NCBI RefSeq assembly: GCF_003184905.1
Contig: NZ_QFRU01000008.1
Coordinates: 62,001-126,000 of the forward strand
Direction: 5' to 3'
Length of the DNA: 64,000 nt
DNA from: Bacillus sp. CGMCC 1.16541
GTDB lineage: Bacteria > Bacillota > Bacilli > Bacillales > Bacillaceae_H
The notes beneath the pieces are model-generated. The model was given only the letters and a program-made list of their open reading frames with translations. It was not told the origin of the DNA and made no database searches. Numbering within the stretch: the first letter of the stretch is position 1; every line of letters begins with the position of its first letter. Both the position numbers and the translations under genes were made by a program. Shown one piece after another: positions 12,361-34,488 of the stretch.

Positions 12361-12391
12361 AAATAAAGGCATTCATCAGTCACTAAATGCT

Positions 12392-12502
12392 AAAAAAGTA
12401 AATGTAGATGCACTATCCCGTTCCTCTCTATCTGTTGATAGTAGTGGATTTTTTGAAAAAGGGTTGGTGTCAGCTGAGCCAAACAAGGGTGTTTTTTCCT
12501 CC
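12392..12502 (-). repeat. Structured repeat element, copy 2
   Basis: On the minus strand this region aligns in order with the element at 9888-9996. Shared words are GAGG followed by an A-run, GTTTGGCTC, a CAC..AAC.CC arm, AAATCCA-like bases, AACAGATAGAGAGG, a GGGAT..GTGC arm and CTTTTTT. The paired arms differ from copy 1 but can still pair (CACCAACCC with GGGATAGTG), which is the pattern expected of a conserved RNA structure. The rest of the 12242-12654 gap holds only a small hairpin near 12298-12321 and the possible cre site. Confidence 0.55.
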
Positions 12503-12654
12503 ATTTTGTCTTAGCCCCAAATCTCTCATCGTAGGAAAGTGTGCTAGAAGTTTTGACAAACAAGCGGTGTTACGTCATGGTTTCTGTCATAGTTATGAAA
12601 ATAGCACCAAGACATGCATAACGAATCTGAACTAGTTGAGAAGGAGTGGATGAA

Positions 12655-13893
12655 ATGCAACGACAAAAGTTATTAATCAATGGTGAACGATTAAAACAGG
12701 AGTTAGAACGATTTGCTGATTTTGGCCGCACGGAAAACAATGGAGTCACAAGGTTGGCGTTGTCACAGGAAGATCGTTTAGCGCGTGACCACTTTCGAGC
12801 TTGTTGTGAAGAGTTAGGGATGTCAGTCAATATTGATGACATGGGCTGTATGTATGCGACATTAGAAGGAACAGAGGATGTACCACCGATTGTTATGGGT
12901 TCACACATTGACTCTGTAAAAAAGGGTGGACGATTTGATGGGATTTTAGGAGTTGTAGCTGGCCTAGAAGTTGTGCGTACACTTGTTGAAAATAATGTGA
13001 AGCCTCGCATTCCAATTACAATTGTAAATATTACCAATGAAGAAGGAGCGCGTTTTGAACCGTCAATGATGGCATCTGGTGTGTTATCTGGAAAGTTTGA
13101 AAAAGAAGTCATGATGAAAAAGATAGATATAGAAGGTATTACATTTGAGGATGCGTTAAAGAAAATTGGGTATGATGGAGATAGTGAAAATCGCTTAACA
13201 GAAGCGACAGCATTTCTAGAACTACATATCGAGCAAGGTCCTGTTCTAGAGCAAGAGAAGCTTTCAATTGGGGTTGTTGAATGTGTGTTAGGTATGGTGT
13301 GCTATGACATTGAAGTAAGTGGCTTTTCAAATCATGCAGGAACAACACCTATGCCGATGCGTAAGGATGCTCTATTTGTTACCACTGATTTAATTACCGA
13401 AGCGCGTAAAAAATTAAGTGCGTTAGATGAAAAGCTTGTTTATACAATGGGTCGCATGAACGTATTACCAAATATTCATACGGTCATTCCAAATAAAGTG
13501 GTATTTTCACTTGAAGCGAGACACCAAGATGAAAAGGTGATTGAAGAGGTAGAGAACATCATTCAGTCTTTAACACAATCACCGTCTATTACAGATGGAT
13601 GTAGTGTCAAAGCAACAAAGCTTTGGAATCGTGATACCGTTTGGTTTGACAAAGGTGTAGTTGAACAAGTAGAAGAAGCAACAAAGTCGCTCGGATATTC
13701 CTATAAACGAATGGTAAGCGGTGCAGGGCATGATGCGCAATTCCTACAAAGTTATATTCCAAGCGCAATGATTTTTATTCCAAGTCAAAACGGGCAAAGT
13801 CATTGTGAAGAAGAATATTCAACGTGGGAAGAATGTGAATGCGGTGTGAATGTTCTATTAGAAACTGTGATGGGATTGTTAGCAAAAGCGTAA
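12655..13893 (+). CDS. M20 family Zn-dependent amidohydrolase (N-carbamoyl-L-amino acid hydrolase / allantoate amidohydrolase type)
   Basis: This 412-residue cytosolic metallohydrolase cleaves carbamoyl or ureido groups from amino-acid-like substrates. I start it at ATG 12655, 8 bp after AAGGAG; a GTG at 12646 overlaps the ribosome site. Metal ligands are visible in GSHIDSVKKGGRFDG, NEEGARFEPS and HIEQGPVLE, and the dimerisation-domain signature in GFSNHAGTTPM. The late GHDAQF also fits. No hydantoinase or allantoinase gene is adjacent, so the substrate (N-carbamoyl amino acid, allantoate or beta-ureidopropionate) stays open. Confidence 0.9.
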   Translation: MQRQKLLINGERLKQELERFADFGRTENNGVTRLALSQEDRLARDHFRACCEELGMSVNIDDMGCMYATLEGTEDVPPIVMGSHIDSVKKGGRFDGILGVVAGLEVVRTLVENNVKPRIPITIVNITNEEGARFEPSMMASGVLSGKFEKEVMMKKIDIEGITFEDALKKIGYDGDSENRLTEATAFLELHIEQGPVLEQEKLSIGVVECVLGMVCYDIEVSGFSNHAGTTPMPMRKDALFVTTDLITEARKKLSALDEKLVYTMGRMNVLPNIHTVIPNKVVFSLEARHQDEKVIEEVENIIQSLTQSPSITDGCSVKATKLWNRDTVWFDKGVVEQVEEATKSLGYSYKRMVSGAGHDAQFLQSYIPSAMIFIPSQNGQSHCEEEYSTWEECECGVNVLLETVMGLLAKA

Positions 13894-25638: not shown

Positions 25639-25667
25639 TTTACAGAACATTTGTTCGTTATTATAAT
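25639..25667 (+). promoter_or_regulatory. Promoter with embedded LexA (SOS) box
   Basis: TTTACA (25639-25644) and TATAAT (25662-25667) are separated by 17 bp. The spacer contains AGAACATTTGTTCG (25644-25657), a near-perfect match to the Bacillus LexA consensus CGAACNNNNGTTCG. A LexA dimer here would block RNA polymerase, so the five genes downstream should be DNA-damage inducible. The rest of the 25421-25692 gap shows nothing else. Confidence 0.82.
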
Positions 25668-25692
25668 AAAAGTATGAAAATAGGAAAAGATT

Positions 25693-27123
25693 GTGAGAGT
25701 GAAAATGATGATCACATTAACTGAAGAATATATTGATTCCGTTGCGCCTAACGCCTCAGCTGTTAAAAATGGTTGGGGGTTAGTCAAAAAGAAAAAATTT
25801 GAAAAGTTACATCAATCAGGCGATCAAATGCTTTTATTTGGAGAGTGTACAGGAAGTGGTAAGAAACCGTATATTACATCTGTTGATTTTATTAACAAAG
25901 AGCAACCTACATATCGCTGTACATGTCCAAGTCGTCAATTTCCGTGTAAACATGCACTCGGCCTTTTATATGCTTATATTGATGGTCAAGCTTTTACAGA
26001 AGCAGACATACCTAAAGACGTAATTGAAAAACGTGAAAAAATGATAAAGCGAGCAGAAAAAAAGCAAGCAGAAGCTGTAGTGCCAAAGAAAAAGAAAGTA
26101 AACAAAGCAGCGCTTCGTAAAAAGTTACAAGCACAACTAGAAGGACTTGAAATGATTGAAACGTTGTTGCATAACCTTGTTCGTGGTGGGCTAGGTGCTA
26201 TCGATGCAAAGACGCTCAAGCAAGTTGAAGCGGCAGCAAAAGAAGCAGGTAATCATTATTTAAAAGAACTTCAACACGCTTTGCGCGAACTTGTGCAATT
26301 ATGGAAAGCAAAGCTTCCAGAAGAACAATTGTATGGAAGAGCCATTCATGAAATTCAACGATTATCAGTTATTTGTAAAAAAGGGAAAAGCCATTTAGAA
26401 AATCGGTTAAACGATGAAGAGCTTACACTTGATACAACAACTTCTATTGAAGAGTGGATTGGTCATACGTGGCAACTAGCAGAGCTGCGAGAGTTAGGAA
26501 AGGTAAAATATGATGTGAAACTTGTTCAACTTTCGTATGCATCTTATCAAAATGATGCTAGAAAAGAATTTGTTGATGAAGGAATTTGGTTATCATTACA
26601 AGATCAACATCTGTATTATACAAGACAATATCGGCCGTTTCGAGCAGCTAAACAGCTCAAACAAGAAGATTCTACATGTTCAGTTTTACACACAGATGAG
26701 TTTGTCATCTATCCAAGTGAAGGGAATGCACGAGTTCGCTGGGAAACTTCGAAACTTGAAGAACTGTCTGAGGAGACGTATTTGTGCATTCAGCAAGCAG
26801 CGAAGCACAGTCTGTCAGATGTGGTAAAACACGTGAAGAATCAACTAAAACAACCGCTAGCCGATAAGCATCCGCTTGCGCTTATTGCCTATGACAAAAT
26901 TGGCAAAGTAAATGAAAAGTGGATACTTGAAGATCAACAAGGTGAACGTCTTACACTAGCAGATGAGGATGGAGATACAATACCACTTTTAACGTTACTA
27001 AGAGCGGATCAATTATCTAATCAAGTATTGCTCGTTCAATTTCACCACAACTTACAAAGCAATGAACTAACTGCAAAGCCATTATCACTTATTACACACG
27101 AACAAATCATTCGGTTTAAATAG
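25693..27123 (+). CDS. SWIM zinc-finger protein, first gene of SWIM-MoxR-DUF5682-VWA operon
   Basis: This is a 476-residue protein. GTG 25693 follows AGGAAA at suitable distance; ATG 25705 is an alternative. A SWIM zinc finger lies at about residues 74-90 with ligands Cys76, Cys78, Cys85 and His87 (CTCPSRQFPCKH). It is followed by a Lys-rich linker (KKKKVNKAALRKK) and a largely helical region with no domain I recognise. SWIM fingers bind DNA or proteins. It lies 14 bp upstream of the next gene. The role in the system is unknown; recognition of nucleic acid is a plausible inference. Confidence 0.88.
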   Translation: MRVKMMITLTEEYIDSVAPNASAVKNGWGLVKKKKFEKLHQSGDQMLLFGECTGSGKKPYITSVDFINKEQPTYRCTCPSRQFPCKHALGLLYAYIDGQAFTEADIPKDVIEKREKMIKRAEKKQAEAVVPKKKKVNKAALRKKLQAQLEGLEMIETLLHNLVRGGLGAIDAKTLKQVEAAAKEAGNHYLKELQHALRELVQLWKAKLPEEQLYGRAIHEIQRLSVICKKGKSHLENRLNDEELTLDTTTSIEEWIGHTWQLAELRELGKVKYDVKLVQLSYASYQNDARKEFVDEGIWLSLQDQHLYYTRQYRPFRAAKQLKQEDSTCSVLHTDEFVIYPSEGNARVRWETSKLEELSEETYLCIQQAAKHSLSDVVKHVKNQLKQPLADKHPLALIAYDKIGKVNEKWILEDQQGERLTLADEDGDTIPLLTLLRADQLSNQVLLVQFHHNLQSNELTAKPLSLITHEQIIRFK

Positions 27124-27137
27124 AAGGAGTATGAAAC

Positions 27138-28943
27138 ATGATACCTATTTTATCGAGTTTACATGATGAAACAAAACGCTTAATGATTGCTGGTAGTGAT
27201 TTAGCAGTCAACGATCCAAAACTACAAAAGCTCATTCCAACCCTAAAAACAATGGGAGAAAAAGCTCCGATATTTGCTAAGCTTGCAGCACTTACAGAAG
27301 AACTAATTCAAACGAAAGAAGAAACAGCTACGAAGCTAATCGAGCTTTCCCAACTACTTACTTCTATTTTATACACACAAGGGAAAACAGGAGAAGAAGG
27401 GACACTTGTACAAAATGAAGTGTCTGTTACGTATGAAACAACGCTTTCTCACCGTCGTATCCATCCCTTGATAGAGGCTTTAACAACAACCGGTTCAGGG
27501 CGCTTGCAAATTATCCAAGAAGCTGTTGAATCAGGCTTATACAAAGATTTACGACTTGTTTTACCGTTTATTTCAGCATTAGAAGATTCGTACGCAGAAA
27601 TTGGAGATTATGTGGCAACGAATGTATTACCAACACTTGACCCATCCATTTTGCCTCTCATTCAAGCACAATTTAACTTGAAAGGATCAAAAGCAGACGC
27701 TCGACGTTTAAAGGTAATTAGCTCCTTTTTAGGAAAAGAAGGCATGTCACTTTATTTAGAAGCAATCGAAAGCGGTTCAAAACAAGTAAAAATCGAAGCG
27801 ATTAAATGCTTAGCATCATTCGATGAAGCAGAAGAGTGGCTTTTAACGTATGCAAAAGATAAAAAGGTAGAGGTGCGAACAGCTGCCTATGAAGCTCTTG
27901 CGAGTCGAGAATCAGAAAAGGCAGCAGCGTGTGTAGCTGATGCACTTCGCGGAAAAGACAATTATCATGTCATGTATATTGTGCAAAATAGTCAGTCCAA
28001 ACGATTAGGTGAACATGTACAATCCTATGTGAAACAAGCGTACGATACCTATCTTGAAACGAAAAAAATTGATGACAAAGATCGTTTTGCAGAGAGTTTG
28101 CGTTTATTAGAAGGAAAGAAACAAGAAGATGTAAAGGCGCTTTTAACAGACATTATTTACAACGTAGAAGTTCAAGCTGCGATTGCAAGAGAAGCGTTAC
28201 ACCTATTAATTGAAACATACGGAATGGAGATTTTGAAAGAGTTTCCAAATGTTCATCAGCTTAGAAATCGAGCAAGCTTAGTTGATTTTTCCTTTCGGTA
28301 TGGGCTCTTACACTCGTCAAAAGAAGATGTGTTTGAGCAATTTTCTCGTTATGTAAAAAGAGGTCGAAACGATTACGGAGCCCGCCTCATTCTTGAGATG
28401 ATGGATCGAGGAATTTTCTTTAAAGGAAATTTACAATCGTTTGATCGAGAGTATGAAAAACAGAGCTATTATTACGATTATTATGAGGAAGAACGAGAAA
28501 ATCCTTGTTTAGCAGTAGAATGGGATGCACGCTGGATTGATTTATTCATGAGCATGGAAGAAGAAAAGCTCGTATTCCGATTGGTAACAGATGGAACAAA
28601 CGAAAAGCACGTACAGTATGTAATAAATAAACTCGCACTTAATCCGTACTTCTCTAGCTCGCGTGGTGTAAATGCGATGACAGCATTGCTGCAAATGAAC
28701 ATTGAAAACGTATTTGATGTATTAGTAGACACGTTGAAAAAAACCGACAAGTATAGCAACTCAATTAAATTTCACTTAACAACAGTGTTAGAAAATATGA
28801 GACTATTTACGGTTTTACAGACAAGGTATGCACCACAATTAGAAAGAATCGCCGTAGAAGAGATTGAAACAGAAAAAATCAAAAATCGTTTATTAACCAT
28901 TGCATATGATTTACAAAAAAGTGAGGAGAGCCAATATGTCTAA
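27138..28943 (+). CDS. HEAT-repeat-like protein (DUF5691-like position)
   Basis: This 601-residue all-helical protein follows GAAGGAG. HEAT/armadillo-like repeats are visible around residues 210-275 (KQVKIEAIKCLASFDEAEEWLL, and KKVEVRTAAYEALASRES one repeat later), so it is probably a scaffold. No catalytic motif is evident. It occupies the place held by DUF5691 proteins in comparable SWIM-MoxR-VWA clusters as I remember them; direct homology was not tested. Its end overlaps the MoxR start by 8 bp. Confidence 0.8.
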   Translation: MIPILSSLHDETKRLMIAGSDLAVNDPKLQKLIPTLKTMGEKAPIFAKLAALTEELIQTKEETATKLIELSQLLTSILYTQGKTGEEGTLVQNEVSVTYETTLSHRRIHPLIEALTTTGSGRLQIIQEAVESGLYKDLRLVLPFISALEDSYAEIGDYVATNVLPTLDPSILPLIQAQFNLKGSKADARRLKVISSFLGKEGMSLYLEAIESGSKQVKIEAIKCLASFDEAEEWLLTYAKDKKVEVRTAAYEALASRESEKAAACVADALRGKDNYHVMYIVQNSQSKRLGEHVQSYVKQAYDTYLETKKIDDKDRFAESLRLLEGKKQEDVKALLTDIIYNVEVQAAIAREALHLLIETYGMEILKEFPNVHQLRNRASLVDFSFRYGLLHSSKEDVFEQFSRYVKRGRNDYGARLILEMMDRGIFFKGNLQSFDREYEKQSYYYDYYEEERENPCLAVEWDARWIDLFMSMEEEKLVFRLVTDGTNEKHVQYVINKLALNPYFSSSRGVNAMTALLQMNIENVFDVLVDTLKKTDKYSNSIKFHLTTVLENMRLFTVLQTRYAPQLERIAVEEIETEKIKNRLLTIAYDLQKSEESQYV

Positions 28944-30021
28944 TCTTTTACGATTGCCAGCTGAACAGTTGTATCAAGAAGAAATTGAAGCGTTAAAAAA
29001 AGCAGAAAGAAATACAGTACCTCCCGGTTGGCAGCTCTCTCCTCGTTCTGTTTATACGTTTATCGCAGGTGGGCAGTGTGGAAAGATGGAGATTACACCA
29101 AAATACATTGGAAACAAACGACTTGTTGAAATGGCCATTGCGACATTGGTAACAGATCGTGCGCTACTGTTAATAGGGGAACCTGGTACAGCGAAGTCGA
29201 CATTGTCAGAGTTACTAACAGCTGCTATTCACGGAGACTCTTCAAAAGTCATTCAAGGAACGGCTGGGACGACAGAAGAACAAGTGCGCTATTCGTGGAA
29301 CTATGCGATGCTGTTAGCGAAAGGTCCTTCATTCGACGCTCTTGTTAAGAGTCCGATTTATCGTGCGATGGAGCAAGGTGGTATTGCTCGATTTGAAGAA
29401 ATTTCACGTTGTTCATCAGAAGTCCAAGATGCACTGATTTCGATTTTGTCAGAAAAAAACATGTCAATTCCCGAGCTTGGTGAAGAGGTATCCGCTGTTC
29501 GTGGATTTTCAGTCATTGCAACGGCAAATACACGTGACCGCGGGGTGAACGAAATGTCATCTGCTTTAAAGCGTCGTTTTAATATTCTTGTATTGCCAAC
29601 ACCTGCAACGATTGAAACAGAAATAGAAATCGTAACAAAACGCGTAAATGAACTTTCCGCTCAATTTGATCTTCAAGCAGAACTGCCTTCAGAAGAGTTA
29701 GTGCGCCGTGTTGTGACTATTTTCCGCGAGCTAAGAAGTGGTATGACTCTTGATCGCAAAGAGAAAGTAAAAGCGCCAAGTGGAGTGATTTCAACAGCAG
29801 AAGCCATTTCGCTTTTAACCAATAGTATGGCTCTGTCTGGCAGCTTCGGAAGCGGTCAGCTAACTGAAGAAGATGTGGCAGCTGGTTTACAAGGAGCCAT
29901 TGTAAAAGATGAGCAAAAAGATGCGATTGTATGGAAAGAGTATGTAGAAAACGTGATGAAGAAAAAAGGCTCAGCATGGCGCGAGTTGTATCACGCGTGT
30001 TGTGAGTTGAACGGACGATGA
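28936..30021 (+). CDS. MoxR-type AAA+ ATPase
   Basis: This is a 361-residue MoxR/CoxD-family AAA+ ATPase, a presumed chaperone-like motor that works with a VWA partner. I start it at ATG 28936 after GAGGAGAG. Walker A is GEPGTAKST (81-89). The Walker B region is IARFEEIS with Glu where Asp is usual. Sensor 1 is ATANTR with Asn198, and the arginine-finger region is SALKRRF. The helix-2 insert typical of MoxR fits the length. The end overlaps the DUF5682 gene by 4 bp. Confidence 0.92.
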   Translation: MSNLLRLPAEQLYQEEIEALKKAERNTVPPGWQLSPRSVYTFIAGGQCGKMEITPKYIGNKRLVEMAIATLVTDRALLLIGEPGTAKSTLSELLTAAIHGDSSKVIQGTAGTTEEQVRYSWNYAMLLAKGPSFDALVKSPIYRAMEQGGIARFEEISRCSSEVQDALISILSEKNMSIPELGEEVSAVRGFSVIATANTRDRGVNEMSSALKRRFNILVLPTPATIETEIEIVTKRVNELSAQFDLQAELPSEELVRRVVTIFRELRSGMTLDRKEKVKAPSGVISTAEAISLLTNSMALSGSFGSGQLTEEDVAAGLQGAIVKDEQKDAIVWKEYVENVMKKKGSAWRELYHACCELNGR

Positions 30022-32237
30022 TTCCCCATATTTTCGGTGTGCGTCATTTGTCACCTGCATCGGCTTATCATGTAGAAAAGTGGTTAGACGATGTGAAACC
30101 AACAGCCGTTTTAATTGAAGGTCCAGCGGATGCGACTCCACTGATTGCACATATCGCGAGAAAAGAAGTGAAACCACCACTTGCTATTATGGCATACACA
30201 CAAGAAGTGCCAGTTCAAACAGTTGTGTATCCTCTAGCTTCCTATTCACCGGAGTATCGAGCCATTATATGGGCAATTCAACATGATGTTCATGTTTCGT
30301 TTATTGATTTGCCGAGTTCTATTACTCTTGCAAGAGAGAAGGAAACAGAGCGATATGAAGGGGAATCAATCTATGAAAGAATGGCTTCCATTGCTGGGGA
30401 ACTAGATTATGAATCTTATTGGGAGCGTTCATATGAACACATTCAGTCATCTCAATCGTTTCAGCAAGCGATTCATACATTTTCCTCGCATTTGCGAGAG
30501 CTTGAAAGAGAAGATGATGAGAATATGCACCGTGAAGCGTTCATGAAACAGCAAATTCGACAAAAAATAGAAGAAGGTTATGATCCGAATAAGATTGCGG
30601 TGATTACAGGTGCTTTTCATGTAAAAGGGTTACAAGAAGCTCAAAATCAAGAAGTGCCAGTTGTTCAACCCGTTGCGACGAACCTAACGTTAATGCCTTA
30701 TTCAAACTTCAAATTGTCTGCAAGATCTGGTTACGGAGCAGGGAATGATGCGCCAGCTTATTTCGAGATGATGTGGGAATGTATGCAAAGAGGAAAGTTA
30801 CATGAACTTCCTTCCTATTATATGACATCCGTTGCTTCAGCTTTAAGAGAATCGGGTACGTTTCGTTCATCTGCTGAAGTGATTGAGGGTGTAAGACTAG
30901 CTCACTCGCTTGCTTTATTTCGGGATGGCTTTTTGCCAACGTTGCGCGATTTGCGAGATGCAGCAACTGTAAACTTAGGGCAAGGTGAGTTTTCGGTCAT
31001 TGCTGAAGCCTGTGCACAAGTTGAAACAGGAATCAATATCGGATTTCTACCAGAAGGAGTTAGTCAAACCCCCATTCAAGACGATTTTTATCGTGAAGTA
31101 AAGAAGTTGAAGCTTGAAAAGTATAGGACCACTGTTAAACAAACGGTTCAACTTGACTTGCGAGAGAATCGACGAGTAAAGAGAAAGGAAGCTGCATTTT
31201 TAGATTTAAATCGTTCCTCTTTCTTTCATAAATTACAAGTGTTACAGCTTCCATTTGCGTTACCTGTCTTCTATGAACAAGATGACGCAACATGGGCAGA
31301 GCGTTGGGACATACAATGGACACCTGAAGTAGAGATGCAACTTGTTGAAACAACTTTACTCGGTGAAAGTATCGATTTAGCCGTTGCTTTTCGATTAAAA
31401 GAGCGACTTGAAAGTAGTAAGCGTGTATCTCAAGCTGCTGAAGTCGTTCATACAGCCTTTCAATGTGGCATGCTTACGATGATGAAAGTCGCTCAAGTCA
31501 CAGTTCAACATTTGACAGTCGATGAAGGAGACTTCATTGAAACTGCTAGTGCAGCAACGAATATTGCACAAGTCGTTCAGTACGGAGATGTTCGTAAAGT
31601 GGATAGCACGTCGTTACAGCCTATTGTGAAGCAACTCTTTTTACGCAGCACACTGTTACTAGTCGATAGTACTCGATGTAATAACGATGCTGCGCGACTT
31701 ATTATGGACGCGATGAATGAAGTGAACGCTATCGCTCTTCAACTCTACGAATTAATAGACGAAGGAGAGTGGTTACGAGTATTAAAAGAAGTAGCATTTC
31801 GAGACGATCTTAATCCTTTGCTATCAGGTTATGCTTGTACGCTTTTACTTGAACGGAATCAAATCGATGCAAAGACACTGTCAGAAGAAGTAGCGAGACG
31901 ATTATCACCAGGGGTGCCAGTGGATTTAGGAGCAGGTTGGTTTGAAGGATTATGTGTTCGGAATAAATATGCGCTTTTATCACGTCCGTTCTTATGGGAA
32001 CAAATTGATGACTACGTCTCCTCACTTTCAAATGAGCAGTTTTATCGTGCACTCGTCTTTTTGCGACGTGCGTTTACATCGTTTACCTCAGTTGATCGAG
32101 CAAAAGTAGCAGAGTTACTTGGTGATTTATGGGGAGGCGATTCACTGATGATAAGCGAACAATTACATGAATCGTTAACAGAGGAAGAAGAAGCGGCAAT
32201 CAATGAATTAAACGACTTTGAGTTTGGAGACTTTTAA
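30018..32237 (+). CDS. DUF5682 family protein
   Basis: This is a 739-residue protein beginning MIPHIFGVRHLSPASAYHV, the hallmark of DUF5682, followed by AVLIEGPADATPLI. The N-terminal region resembles the TraB/EreA-like fold with conserved His and Glu (GVRH, EGP), and a later TGAFHVKGL repeats the theme. An enzymatic role (hydrolase-like) is possible but unproven. The remaining two thirds are helical. It is coupled by 4-bp and 1-bp overlaps to the ATPase and VWA genes and so is probably made in fixed ratio with them. Confidence 0.87.
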   Translation: MIPHIFGVRHLSPASAYHVEKWLDDVKPTAVLIEGPADATPLIAHIARKEVKPPLAIMAYTQEVPVQTVVYPLASYSPEYRAIIWAIQHDVHVSFIDLPSSITLAREKETERYEGESIYERMASIAGELDYESYWERSYEHIQSSQSFQQAIHTFSSHLRELEREDDENMHREAFMKQQIRQKIEEGYDPNKIAVITGAFHVKGLQEAQNQEVPVVQPVATNLTLMPYSNFKLSARSGYGAGNDAPAYFEMMWECMQRGKLHELPSYYMTSVASALRESGTFRSSAEVIEGVRLAHSLALFRDGFLPTLRDLRDAATVNLGQGEFSVIAEACAQVETGINIGFLPEGVSQTPIQDDFYREVKKLKLEKYRTTVKQTVQLDLRENRRVKRKEAAFLDLNRSSFFHKLQVLQLPFALPVFYEQDDATWAERWDIQWTPEVEMQLVETTLLGESIDLAVAFRLKERLESSKRVSQAAEVVHTAFQCGMLTMMKVAQVTVQHLTVDEGDFIETASAATNIAQVVQYGDVRKVDSTSLQPIVKQLFLRSTLLLVDSTRCNNDAARLIMDAMNEVNAIALQLYELIDEGEWLRVLKEVAFRDDLNPLLSGYACTLLLERNQIDAKTLSEEVARRLSPGVPVDLGAGWFEGLCVRNKYALLSRPFLWEQIDDYVSSLSNEQFYRALVFLRRAFTSFTSVDRAKVAELLGDLWGGDSLMISEQLHESLTEEEEAAINELNDFEFGDF

Positions 32238-33409
32238 TGATGACAAATTATCAAAACATGCCAAGGTGGCGTCTGATTTTAGGTGAAGGGTCAAGAGAAA
32301 CATTCACATCGTATGATGAACAAATGGTTCAATTAACAGATGAACAGCAGTTAATGGATGAAGCGTTAGCTGCCATTTATGACAATACAGATGGAAGTTC
32401 AGCAAGTATGGGCTCCTCTTTAAAACTTGCAAAATGGCTTGGGGATGTTCGAACCTTTTTTCCGCAGGATGTTGTCTCCGTTATTCAACGTGACGCCATT
32501 GAACGTAAAGGCTTAACACAACTTTTATTTGAACCTGAAACGATGAAACATGTAAAGCCGAGCATTGAAATGGTTGCCACGCTGTTATCGTTAAAAGGCA
32601 AAATCCCTGAACGAACAAAAGATACTGCGCGAGAACTTGTTCAAGCTGTTGTTGAGGATATTCGGAAGCGCCTCGAGCAAGATATTCGTCAAGCGGTAAA
32701 AGGAGCTTTAAACCGTCAAAAACATTCTCCGTTATCAAGCGGATTACAGAGTGTCGATTGGCAGTCAACCATTAGGCGAAACTTGAGGCATTACAATAAA
32801 GAATATCAGATGGTTATCCCAGAAAGATTTTATTTTTTTGAACGAGCACGTCAATCCAATCATTGGACTGTTATTGTAGATATTGATCAAAGTGCATCGA
32901 TGGGTGAATCGATTATTTATGCTTCAATTGTGAGTTCCATTTTCGCAAGCATACCTGCTTTAAAAACACACGTTGTGGCATTTGATACAGATGTGGTCGA
33001 TTTAACAGAACAATGTGAACAAGACCCAGTTGATATGTTGTTTGGCATTCAACTAGGAGGTGGAACGGATATTAATAAATCCATTGGATATTGTGAATCG
33101 TTTATTACAGATCCAGCTAAGACGCTGTTTATATTAATTTCAGATTTAGAAGAGGGAGGAAATCGGGCAGGTATGATTCGGCGTTTACGAGAGATGCATG
33201 AAGCAGGAGTAAAGGTTATTAGCTTACTAGCACTTTCTGATGAGGGGGTTCCTTATTATGATCAATCGAACGCGAACCAACTTGCAAAAATCGGTATCCC
33301 TTGTTTTGGGTGTACACCGTCACTGCTTCCTGATTTACTTGAAGATGCTCTAAAGGGGAAAGATTTACGTGAGTGGGCGACGAAGTCGTATCACTCGTTG
33401 CGTTCATAA
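32237..33409 (+). CDS. VWA (CoxE-like) domain protein
   Basis: This 390-residue cytosolic protein is the presumed metal-dependent adaptor of the MoxR ATPase. A helical N-terminal half precedes a VWA domain that starts near residue 208. The MIDAS motif DQSAS has Asp217, Ser219 and Ser221, followed by the GGGTDINKS threonine and LISDLEEGG aspartate. The start codon overlaps the previous stop (TAATG). It is the last gene of the operon; a weak TAGAGG/CCTCTA hairpin at 33444-33466 may terminate transcription. Confidence 0.9.
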   Translation: MMTNYQNMPRWRLILGEGSRETFTSYDEQMVQLTDEQQLMDEALAAIYDNTDGSSASMGSSLKLAKWLGDVRTFFPQDVVSVIQRDAIERKGLTQLLFEPETMKHVKPSIEMVATLLSLKGKIPERTKDTARELVQAVVEDIRKRLEQDIRQAVKGALNRQKHSPLSSGLQSVDWQSTIRRNLRHYNKEYQMVIPERFYFFERARQSNHWTVIVDIDQSASMGESIIYASIVSSIFASIPALKTHVVAFDTDVVDLTEQCEQDPVDMLFGIQLGGGTDINKSIGYCESFITDPAKTLFILISDLEEGGNRAGMIRRLREMHEAGVKVISLLALSDEGVPYYDQSNANQLAKIGIPCFGCTPSLLPDLLEDALKGKDLREWATKSYHSLRS

Positions 33410-33792: not shown

Positions 33793-34488
33793 ATGTTAGT
33801 CAATAAAGCCTATAAGTTTCGGATCTATCCTAATAAGGAACAAGAAATCTTAATCGCTAAAACAATCGGTTGTTCTCGCTAAACGGGCTCGTCTGTTGGT
33901 GTGGATGTTGGTCTGAAAGATGTTGCGATTCTTTCAACAGGTGAAGTATTTAGTAATCCTAAATGGTTTCGGAAGCTGGAAGAAACATTAGCGAAAGCAC
34001 AGTGTGTTCTTTCGAGACGACAGGAATTAGCATTCAAACGAAACTGTCAACTGGAGGAAGCAAAAAACGATCAAAAGCAAAAACGCAAAGTAGCTCGCCT
34101 CCATGAGAAAATCACGAATGCAAGAACAGACTATTTGCAAAAAATCTCTACTGAAATCATCAAAAACCACGATGTAATCGGTATTGAAGATTTGCAAGTG
34201 TCAAATCTGTTGAAGAATCATAAGTTAGCGAAAGCAATTAGTGAAGTATCGTGGTCACAATTTAGAACGATGTTAGCGTACAAAGCAAAGTGGTATGGAA
34301 AACAGGTAGTCATTGTGTCTAAAACCTTTGCAAGTTCTCAATTATGTTCAATTTGTGGCTACCAAAACAAAGCCGTTTCAAGCAATGGCGAACTTAACAG
34401 GTATGAAGTATTTGCCGACTTATACAGTACAAGGAGTGCGAACATTAACAAGGGAACAGCTACAAGAAAGTGCAGAAGAATTAGTTAG
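33793..34488 (+). pseudogene. tnpB: tnpB (IS605/IS1341-type) pseudogene, internally deleted
   Basis: The N-terminus is intact for 29 codons (MLVNKAYKFRIYPNKEQEIL..), then an in-frame TAA marks the junction of an internal deletion of about 150 codons. RuvC-I ([11 protein letters not shown]), RuvC-II Glu ([11 protein letters not shown]) and the first zinc-finger half (CSICGYQNK) follow. The second CxxC and the DRDxNA motif of RuvC-III are lost where the frame runs into unrelated sequence. It cannot encode an active nuclease. A -10 and GGAGGTG ribosome site survive upstream. Confidence 0.9.

Follow-up and report, generated by a model that had tools for sequence, protein, structure and literature searches.

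A predicted LexA box before a SWIM, HEAT, MoxR, DUF5682 and VWA operon of Bacillus, and damage-switch sites at related operons

Which regulator switches on a five-gene operon of Bacillus sp. CGMCC 1.16541, and what might its products do? The operon occupies 25705-33409 on the plus strand of a 64,000-nt stretch of contig NZ_QFRU01000008.1 (the window; coordinates are positions in it, and the host genome is 3.97 Mb long) and encodes, in order, a SWIM zinc-finger protein, a HEAT-repeat protein, a MoxR AAA+ ATPase, a DUF5682 protein and a VWA protein. An earlier note on this DNA had described five packed genes with junctions of +14, -8, -4 and -1 bp, and a near-perfect Bacillus LexA box in the 17-bp spacer of their promoter. 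The packing is confirmed by the coordinates and by Pfam, and so is the box, AGAACATTTGTTCG, which scores 19.6 bits with a weight matrix of lexA and recA operators, a value reached by 0/336 control upstream regions.

The matrix was built from 13 distinct lexA/recA operators of eight related genomes, none of them taken from the operon (recA of G011, which carries stops, was left out), and the controls came from 20 stretches in seven of these eight genomes. In the window, AGAACATTTGTTCG is the sole site with a single mismatch and sits within the promoter, whose hexamers TTTACA and TATAAT are both retained in the sister-species locus L041. The host encodes LexA and RecA; its lexA promoter bears CGAACTTATGTTTG and CGAACACTTGTTTT, and its recA promoter CGAACATTTATTCG. 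The operon box of Metabacillus iocasae, AGAACGTATGTTCG, retains both arms and within the box differs from the window only in the four central bases; it scores 19.2 bits, with 1/336 controls as high. Both Priestia koreensis-type genomes have an operon box of 14.6 bits (2/336 controls as high), and here the box occupies a different promoter position, 131 bp upstream of the gene. The two higher-scoring background sites may themselves be genuine LexA targets, because one of them precedes a gene 95% identical to another gene of the host with a LexA box. The predicted LexA control of the operon is well supported by sequence.

Related operons of the same order point in the same direction. Ten of 397 genomes in the order sample had a DUF5682 match, two of which (G030 and G064) fell below the cut-off, and all eight remaining loci (8/8) carry an upstream box of at least 14 bits; they represent four genera with two genomes each, the independent cases being nearer four or five. 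Besides the A-type order of the window we found a second, B-type architecture, in which DUF4132/HEAT, MoxR, DUF5682 and VWA genes are followed by SWIM in last place, in G011, G014, G094 and G199 (the SWIM genes of G011 and G094 and the DUF4132 gene of G011 were placed by alignment). All four B-type operons (4/4) have boxes of 14.6-16.6 bits, and that of G199, AGAACATATATTCT (L120), is the exact reverse complement of a lexA operator in G005, G012 and G015. The SWIM proteins of the two architectures are related by profile (hhalign 90.7%). The B-type operons as a whole (genera g3 and g44 of the order, families f50 and f68 of the class) share with the window the MoxR, DUF5682 and VWA core, with LexA-type boxes in many. 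They differ in that g3 and g44 form a separate clade of the MoxR tree described below, and in that a scan of three g3/g44 genes showed DUF4132 with HEAT_2 where the window has its HEAT protein.

The class sample gives a more divided picture. It comprised 398 genomes with 53 matches, from which 49 loci were analysed: G530 and G549 fell below the cut-off, G577 was a fragment with a stop, G000/G094 had already been counted, and G721 supplied two loci. In L189-L225 the region before MoxR was scored, and in L177-L188, which are A-type, the region before SWIM. Promoter boxes scoring 14 bits or more are present in 11/49 loci, and the background holds two such positions in 620 kb and none in 176 upstream regions (0/176). 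In the B-type genus g156 of family f68, 9/11 loci bear CAAACATATGTTTT 68-69 bp before MoxR; strong boxes also occur in G734 (f63) and in G682 (f50), which is A-type and whose GGAACAAATGTTCT precedes SWIM by 108 bp. The 11 include L179, which scores 15.8 bits upstream of SWIM. We guess that g156 is Brevibacillus-like and f50 Paenibacillus-like. In 25/49 class loci (24 of f50, one of f68) there is one copy per locus of a variant dyad, for example AGAACATACGATCT or CAAACATGTGATCT, before MoxR in B-type and before SWIM in A-type operons (as at L204:7737-7750). This dyad resembles a LexA box with one half altered (GATC in one half) and has two matches in the 620-kb background, a comparison that is descriptive, the pattern having been drawn up after its sites were seen. 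The lexA genes of the 14 class genomes checked have ordinary boxes (best per genome 13.8-18.7 bits) and no variant dyad; the dyad may bind LexA weakly or may serve a different regulator.

The operon type itself is not new. To judge from gene order, the window operon is orthologous to ddrTUVWX of Deinococcus, with which it shares the succession SWIM, second gene, MoxR, DUF5682, VWA. In D. deserti, ddrTUVWX corresponds to Deide_18730-18690, has an RDR motif upstream and is induced by gamma radiation in an IrrE-dependent manner; the same source reports the motif upstream of every homolog present in the species examined, and its table lacks Deide_18700 (PMC5552922). An earlier paper describes Deide_18710 as MoxR-like and Deide_18690 as a VWA protein, and proposes a chaperone system (PMC2669436). 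For D. taeanensis an additional 78-amino acid gene is described between ddrV and ddrW (PMC9510100). In the D. taeanensis plasmid locus (L067) the extra gene sits between the AAA ATPase and DUF5682, and therefore T corresponds to SWIM, U to DUF5691, V to MoxR, W to DUF5682 and X to VWA. Judged by core positions (10/12), the best RDR-like site in the 18 kb of this locus is TTACGCCAGAAACATAA, 36 bp ahead of SWIM; when all 17 RDR positions are counted, one other site equals it. At the window locus the best match to the RDR motif is 11/17, inside a gene, and the best upstream match is 10/17. The two operons differ in their regulation, since DdrO and IrrE govern that of Deinococcus whereas a LexA-type box is found in the window; in their second gene, which matches DUF5691 (Pfam) in Deinococcus and HEAT_2 only in the window; and in DUF5682, that of D. 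taeanensis being only 28% identical to the window protein. A DUF4132 operon of D. radiodurans, drA0165-drA0166, is reported to be strongly upregulated upon DdrO depletion (PMC8533742).

A further relative is the yeh cluster of E. coli K-12, whose genes run yehF, yehH (a pseudogene), yehI (DUF4132), yehK, yehL (MoxR), yehM, yehP (VWA) and yehQ (SWIM). The window MoxR is 41% identical to YehL (2.6e-84, blastp) and has no blastp match to RavA at 1e-2, while YehM is a DUF5682 match that aligns with the window DUF5682 at 1e-25. The head gene yehF, which we take to be molR, encodes a WGR domain, and AACTGGATAAAATTACAGGG starts 27 bp before its start, ranking second in 27 kb. In PMC4576408, PMC11039860 and PMC8533742, molR is listed among LexA targets, and the yehF transcript values given over time in an SOS multi-omics study show a modest rise, from -0.12 to 1.14 (PMC11002266). 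Because a 306-bp gap precedes yehL, LexA control at yehF need not extend to yehLMPQ. The yeh cluster thus resembles the window in uniting a YehL-subfamily MoxR with DUF5682, VWA and SWIM and in having a LexA site at its head gene, and differs in that SWIM comes last and that DUF4132 (yehI) and WGR (yehF) are found where the window has HEAT. The cluster of Proteus mirabilis starts with a DUF4132 gene, and immediately ahead of this gene is AACTGTTTATCCATACATGG, which ranks first among the E. coli-type sites in 26 kb of that locus; it has 7/8 core bases, a count equalled by seven further sites in the locus.

A third kind of site appears in Actinobacteria. The LexA-independent damage promoter of mycobacteria, tied to PafBC, is given as tTGTCRgtg-8-TannnT (PMC5656591). 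PafBC-type matches lie upstream of 5/5 actinobacterial loci, four of them full and one at 9/10, and no other full match occurs within these loci. In the A-type operon of Nocardia farcinica a full TGTCRGTG-8-TA is placed 51 bp before the SWIM ATG, with the last T of TannnT unmet; B-type operons on two Streptomyces plasmids have a full match, with TAGTCT, 106-107 bp before the first gene, and in a third, unannotated Streptomyces locus (L143) the identical site was placed by likeness only. The 9/10 match of Nonomuraea lies 30 bp before the probable start, and further 9/10 matches occur in that locus. Across the 5.7 Mb of the four actinobacterial records searched whole, the full motif occurs 24 times, roughly once in 240 kb, and its reversed control eight times. 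The three Streptomyces loci are close kin, leaving about three independent cases.

In a MoxR tree of 34 loci (g3 and g44 included, f50 and f68 not), a fully supported split divides the A- from the B-types, and each side includes both LexA-type and PafBC-type members, the starred branches forcing at least two changes per label; this tree has no fixed root and contains long branches, and its labels stand for sites, some of them from print. The presence of LexA and PafBC sites in both deep branches suggests repeated origins of damage control and speaks for function, beyond shared descent, as what retains it. Overall, a single machine with two architectures seems to have come, on several occasions, under the damage regulator that each lineage possesses. 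Damage-switch sites of different kinds in related machines suggest a job tied to DNA damage, and one family under several unrelated damage regulators makes for a testable claim, that the consequences of DNA damage are what this machine acts upon; culturable Bacillaceae become available as test hosts.

How much of this had been described before? The earlier note knew of no account of SOS control of this gene set. That holds for the Bacillota LexA version, which we did not find in print, and not for the family at large, in which ddrTUVWX is radiation-induced and molR is a listed LexA target. Among the papers listed by literature searches, which lay mostly outside subscription journals, none connects these operons or describes LexA control of this gene set in Bacillota, and none deals with DUF5682. 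As far as these searches show, the grouping of ddrTUVWX, yehLMPQ and a Bacillota version under predicted LexA control into one family is new.

We consider it reasonably probable that the operon encodes a damage-induced AAA+ remodelling machine behind LexA, with MoxR-VWA as motor, SWIM and HEAT for recognition and DUF5682 as effector. LexA would hold the operon off until DNA damage, when RecA-stimulated cleavage of LexA would free the promoter and the five proteins would be produced together. The MoxR ring and the MIDAS-bearing VWA protein would then serve as motor and adaptor, a role already proposed in the earlier note and a likely one, as the ATPase and MIDAS motifs are intact. The SWIM and HEAT proteins would select the target, which we can only guess at but which is probably a protein on damaged DNA. 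DUF5682, with an N-terminal part like a Tiki/ChaN-type hydrolase, would do the chemistry, its activity being delivered or controlled by the motor. The parts of this proposal are unequally supported: damage control of the operon has solid backing from the DNA itself, and the idea of DUF5682 as effector is plausible in view of weak matches to Tiki-superfamily models. Among 16 homologues, from Firmicutes to E. coli YehM, the N-terminal invariants are H10, E34, D97, R172-E173, M176, G198 and H201, and within them H10, E34, R172-E173..M176 and G198xxH201 form a Tiki/ChaN-like signature. PF04187 (described as Tiki superfamily, ChaN) matches 4/16 members weakly (best 0.0052), PF01963 (TraB/PrgY/gumN) 2/16 (best 0.13) and PF18950 (DUF5694) 1/16 (0.0076). 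Both TraB/PrgY/gumN and DUF5694 presumably belong with Tiki.

Several observations weigh against this reading and mark its limits. Within the window, sites with at most two mismatches show no enrichment (12 observed vs 17.6 expected). Genome-wide, the strict pattern MGAACNNNNGTTCK occurs in 11 places in 3.97 Mb vs 10 for the reversed control, so that the pattern by itself proves nothing, and a loose pattern is not enriched either (147/112 vs 128/121 for the reversed control); it is because such mismatch counts and patterns are uninformative that we used the matrix. The LexA box, moreover, is not universal, being absent from three Bacillaceae relatives and several other lineages. LexA boxes in front of orthologous operons, a check named in the earlier note, are present in 8/8 order loci and 11/49 class loci. 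Of the remaining class loci, 25/49 have only the variant dyad, and 13/49 lack both this dyad and a strong box; Bacillus sp. EB01, Bacillus sp. FJAT-27225 and Neobacillus massiliamazoniensis (L043, L044 and L053) have no box (0/3, best 1.0 bits). No box was found at the Paenibacillus loci L045, L046 and L048, at Hungatella L051, in a Eubacterium metagenome-assembled genome (L049) or in Fusobacterium L078 (best 2.1 bits; L047 and L052 were left out of box scoring), and the Myxococcota locus L050 has no close LexA site by consensus count. Fifteen upstream regions were searched at once for the PafBC, E. coli LexA, alphaproteobacterial LexA and RDR motifs, and lone weak matches mean little there; the Hymenobacter, Iodobacter, Fusobacterium, Myxococcota and clostridial loci showed no convincing damage site for any motif used, and the alphaproteobacterial LexA motif gave no 8/8 match in six loci, the best being 7/8 at scattered positions. 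As to DUF5682, sequence searches of the PDB found no solved relative, and unrelated models match its members at E-values similar to those above; a Tiki-type hydrolase, suggested by weak profile matches and motif likeness, is a lead.

Among the other readings, an anti-phage or anti-plasmid conflict system with SOS as its infection alarm, in which SWIM and HEAT sense, MoxR-VWA sets a threshold and DUF5682 kills or disables, would explain the patchy distribution (10/397 order and 53/398 class genomes) and the low conservation of HEAT, with four tandem HEAT genes in L052 and two in L184. A B-type cluster beside type I restriction genes on an Iodobacter plasmid fits as well, and MoxR-vWA pairs do occur in proposed conflict systems (PMC7159879). 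We nevertheless regard it as unlikely. None of the five proteins (0/5) matches PADLOC-DB 2.0.0, and the orthologue sits in the radiation regulon of Deinococcus. The window shares the MoxR and VWA pair with the MoxR-vWA ternary systems described in PMC7159879, and its MoxR is a weak match to Pfam bpMoxR (29.8 bits, against a cut-off of 27), yet Pfam scans of the five proteins showed none of the four defining third components (VMAP, iSTAND, FtsH, beta-propeller) and no effector domain fused to VWA, on which grounds we reject membership in these systems. The defence role that the earlier note had entertained has thus gained no positive evidence. Viral contigs yielded no relative. Among phages the one candidate is an unverified faecal scaffold deposited as 'Bacteriophage sp.' (L080, MT835988.1), which holds MoxR-DUF5682-VWA and resembles bacterial DNA.

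A bolder form of the remodelling proposal is a widely distributed machine for repair of DNA-protein lesions, in which MoxR-VWA would extract proteins from damaged DNA, SWIM/HEAT or WGR/DUF4132 would see the lesion and a Tiki-type DUF5682 would destroy the proteins, the whole having been captured repeatedly by host regulators (LexA of two types, DdrO, PafBC); as a package this is quite unlikely to hold. Decidedly improbable is a chaperone that matures a metal or cofactor enzyme, like CoxD-CoxE or NorQ-NorD, with damage control only via a client sensitive to the same stress. VWA_CoxE is the best VWA model, and enzyme maturation is a known task of MoxR-VWA pairs (PMC3893208 and PMC7159879), but the downstream gene varies among the four Bacillaceae loci checked (AP_endonuc_2-fold, TMEM164, AI-2E transporter, luciferase-like), so that there is no fixed client gene there, and several unrelated damage regulators appear to control the operon. 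That the palindrome is a chance occurrence or another regulator's site, with the operon outside the SOS regulon, draws on the unenriched counts in window and genome and on the f50 dyad, whose GATC half may not be LexA's, but is very improbable and, as regards chance, rejected, because the lexA/recA matrix ranks AGAACATTTGTTCG above 336/336 controls inside a promoter, boxes recur at differing distances in P. koreensis and B-type operons, and the L120 box reproduces a lexA operator in reverse complement.

The damage-induced remodelling machine that we favour would be made of the proteins listed, with their promoter, in Table 1.

Table 1. Promoter elements and genes of the operon, in window positions
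Feature	Coordinates	Strand	Details
sigma-A-type promoter	25639..25667	+	TTTACA 25639-25644, 17-bp spacer, TATAAT 25662-25667
predicted LexA box AGAACATTTGTTCG	25644..25657		begins at last -35 base, covers most of spacer
SWIM zinc-finger protein	25705..27123	+	472 amino acids; Pfam PF04434 1.4e-06; ddrT-like
HEAT-repeat protein	27138..28943	+	601 amino acids; Pfam HEAT_2 4.7e-11; 14-bp gap after SWIM
MoxR AAA+ ATPase, YehL subfamily	28936..30021	+	361 amino acids; AAA_5 1.6e-37; ddrV-like
DUF5682 protein	30018..32237	+	739 amino acids; PF18934 1.6e-141; ddrW-like; 4-bp overlap with MoxR gene
VWA CoxE-type protein	32237..33409	+	390 amino acids; PF05762 (VWA_CoxE) 3.3e-47; ddrX-like; 1-bp overlap with DUF5682 gene

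The SWIM gene has a second possible start, a GTG at 25693, and its motif CxCPSRxxPCKH is invariant across 14 aligned homologues, with CxC...CxH kept. The HEAT protein occupies the DUF5691/ddrU slot; hhalign supported neither a divergent DUF5691 (probability 0.6%) nor the HEAT part of DUF4132 as its identity. Across the Bacillaceae loci no other of the five proteins is conserved so little: identity to L042, L043, L044 and L053 is 36-44%, compared with 77-83% for MoxR. The tandem HEAT genes stand between SWIM and MoxR, four in the Clostridia metagenome-assembled genome L052 (926-8820) and two in the class-sample locus L184, and such multiplied, weakly conserved genes are the pattern expected of a recognition part. 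MoxR starts at the ATG at 28936, overlapping the HEAT gene by 8 bp, and its Walker A, sensor and arginine-finger motifs are retained in the 20 loci compared. We assign it to the YehL subfamily on its being nearest YehL and not RavA, the one other MoxR protein compared, and on its DUF5682, VWA and SWIM neighbours. RavA-ViaA of E. coli likewise joins MoxR to VWA and differs in its MoxR subfamily, neither the MoxR nor the VWA proteins giving a blastp match at 1e-2. The MIDAS of the window VWA protein is intact (DQSAS, with T and D present).

Just past the operon end, at 33901-34488, lies a TnpB fragment (IS200/IS605 type) whose N-terminal half is missing. Elsewhere in the host genome, a box identical to AGAACATTTGTTCG (minus strand, L090:1501-1514) stands 59 bp before an open reading frame at 843-1442 with sigma-70 region 4 domains. 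A gene of 234 amino acids without a Pfam match follows a strong LexA box in the host and in the M. iocasae-like G005, the two proteins being 95% identical (box L087:1501-1514, open reading frame 1554-2258; L128 open reading frame 12384-13088), which makes it a candidate SOS gene.

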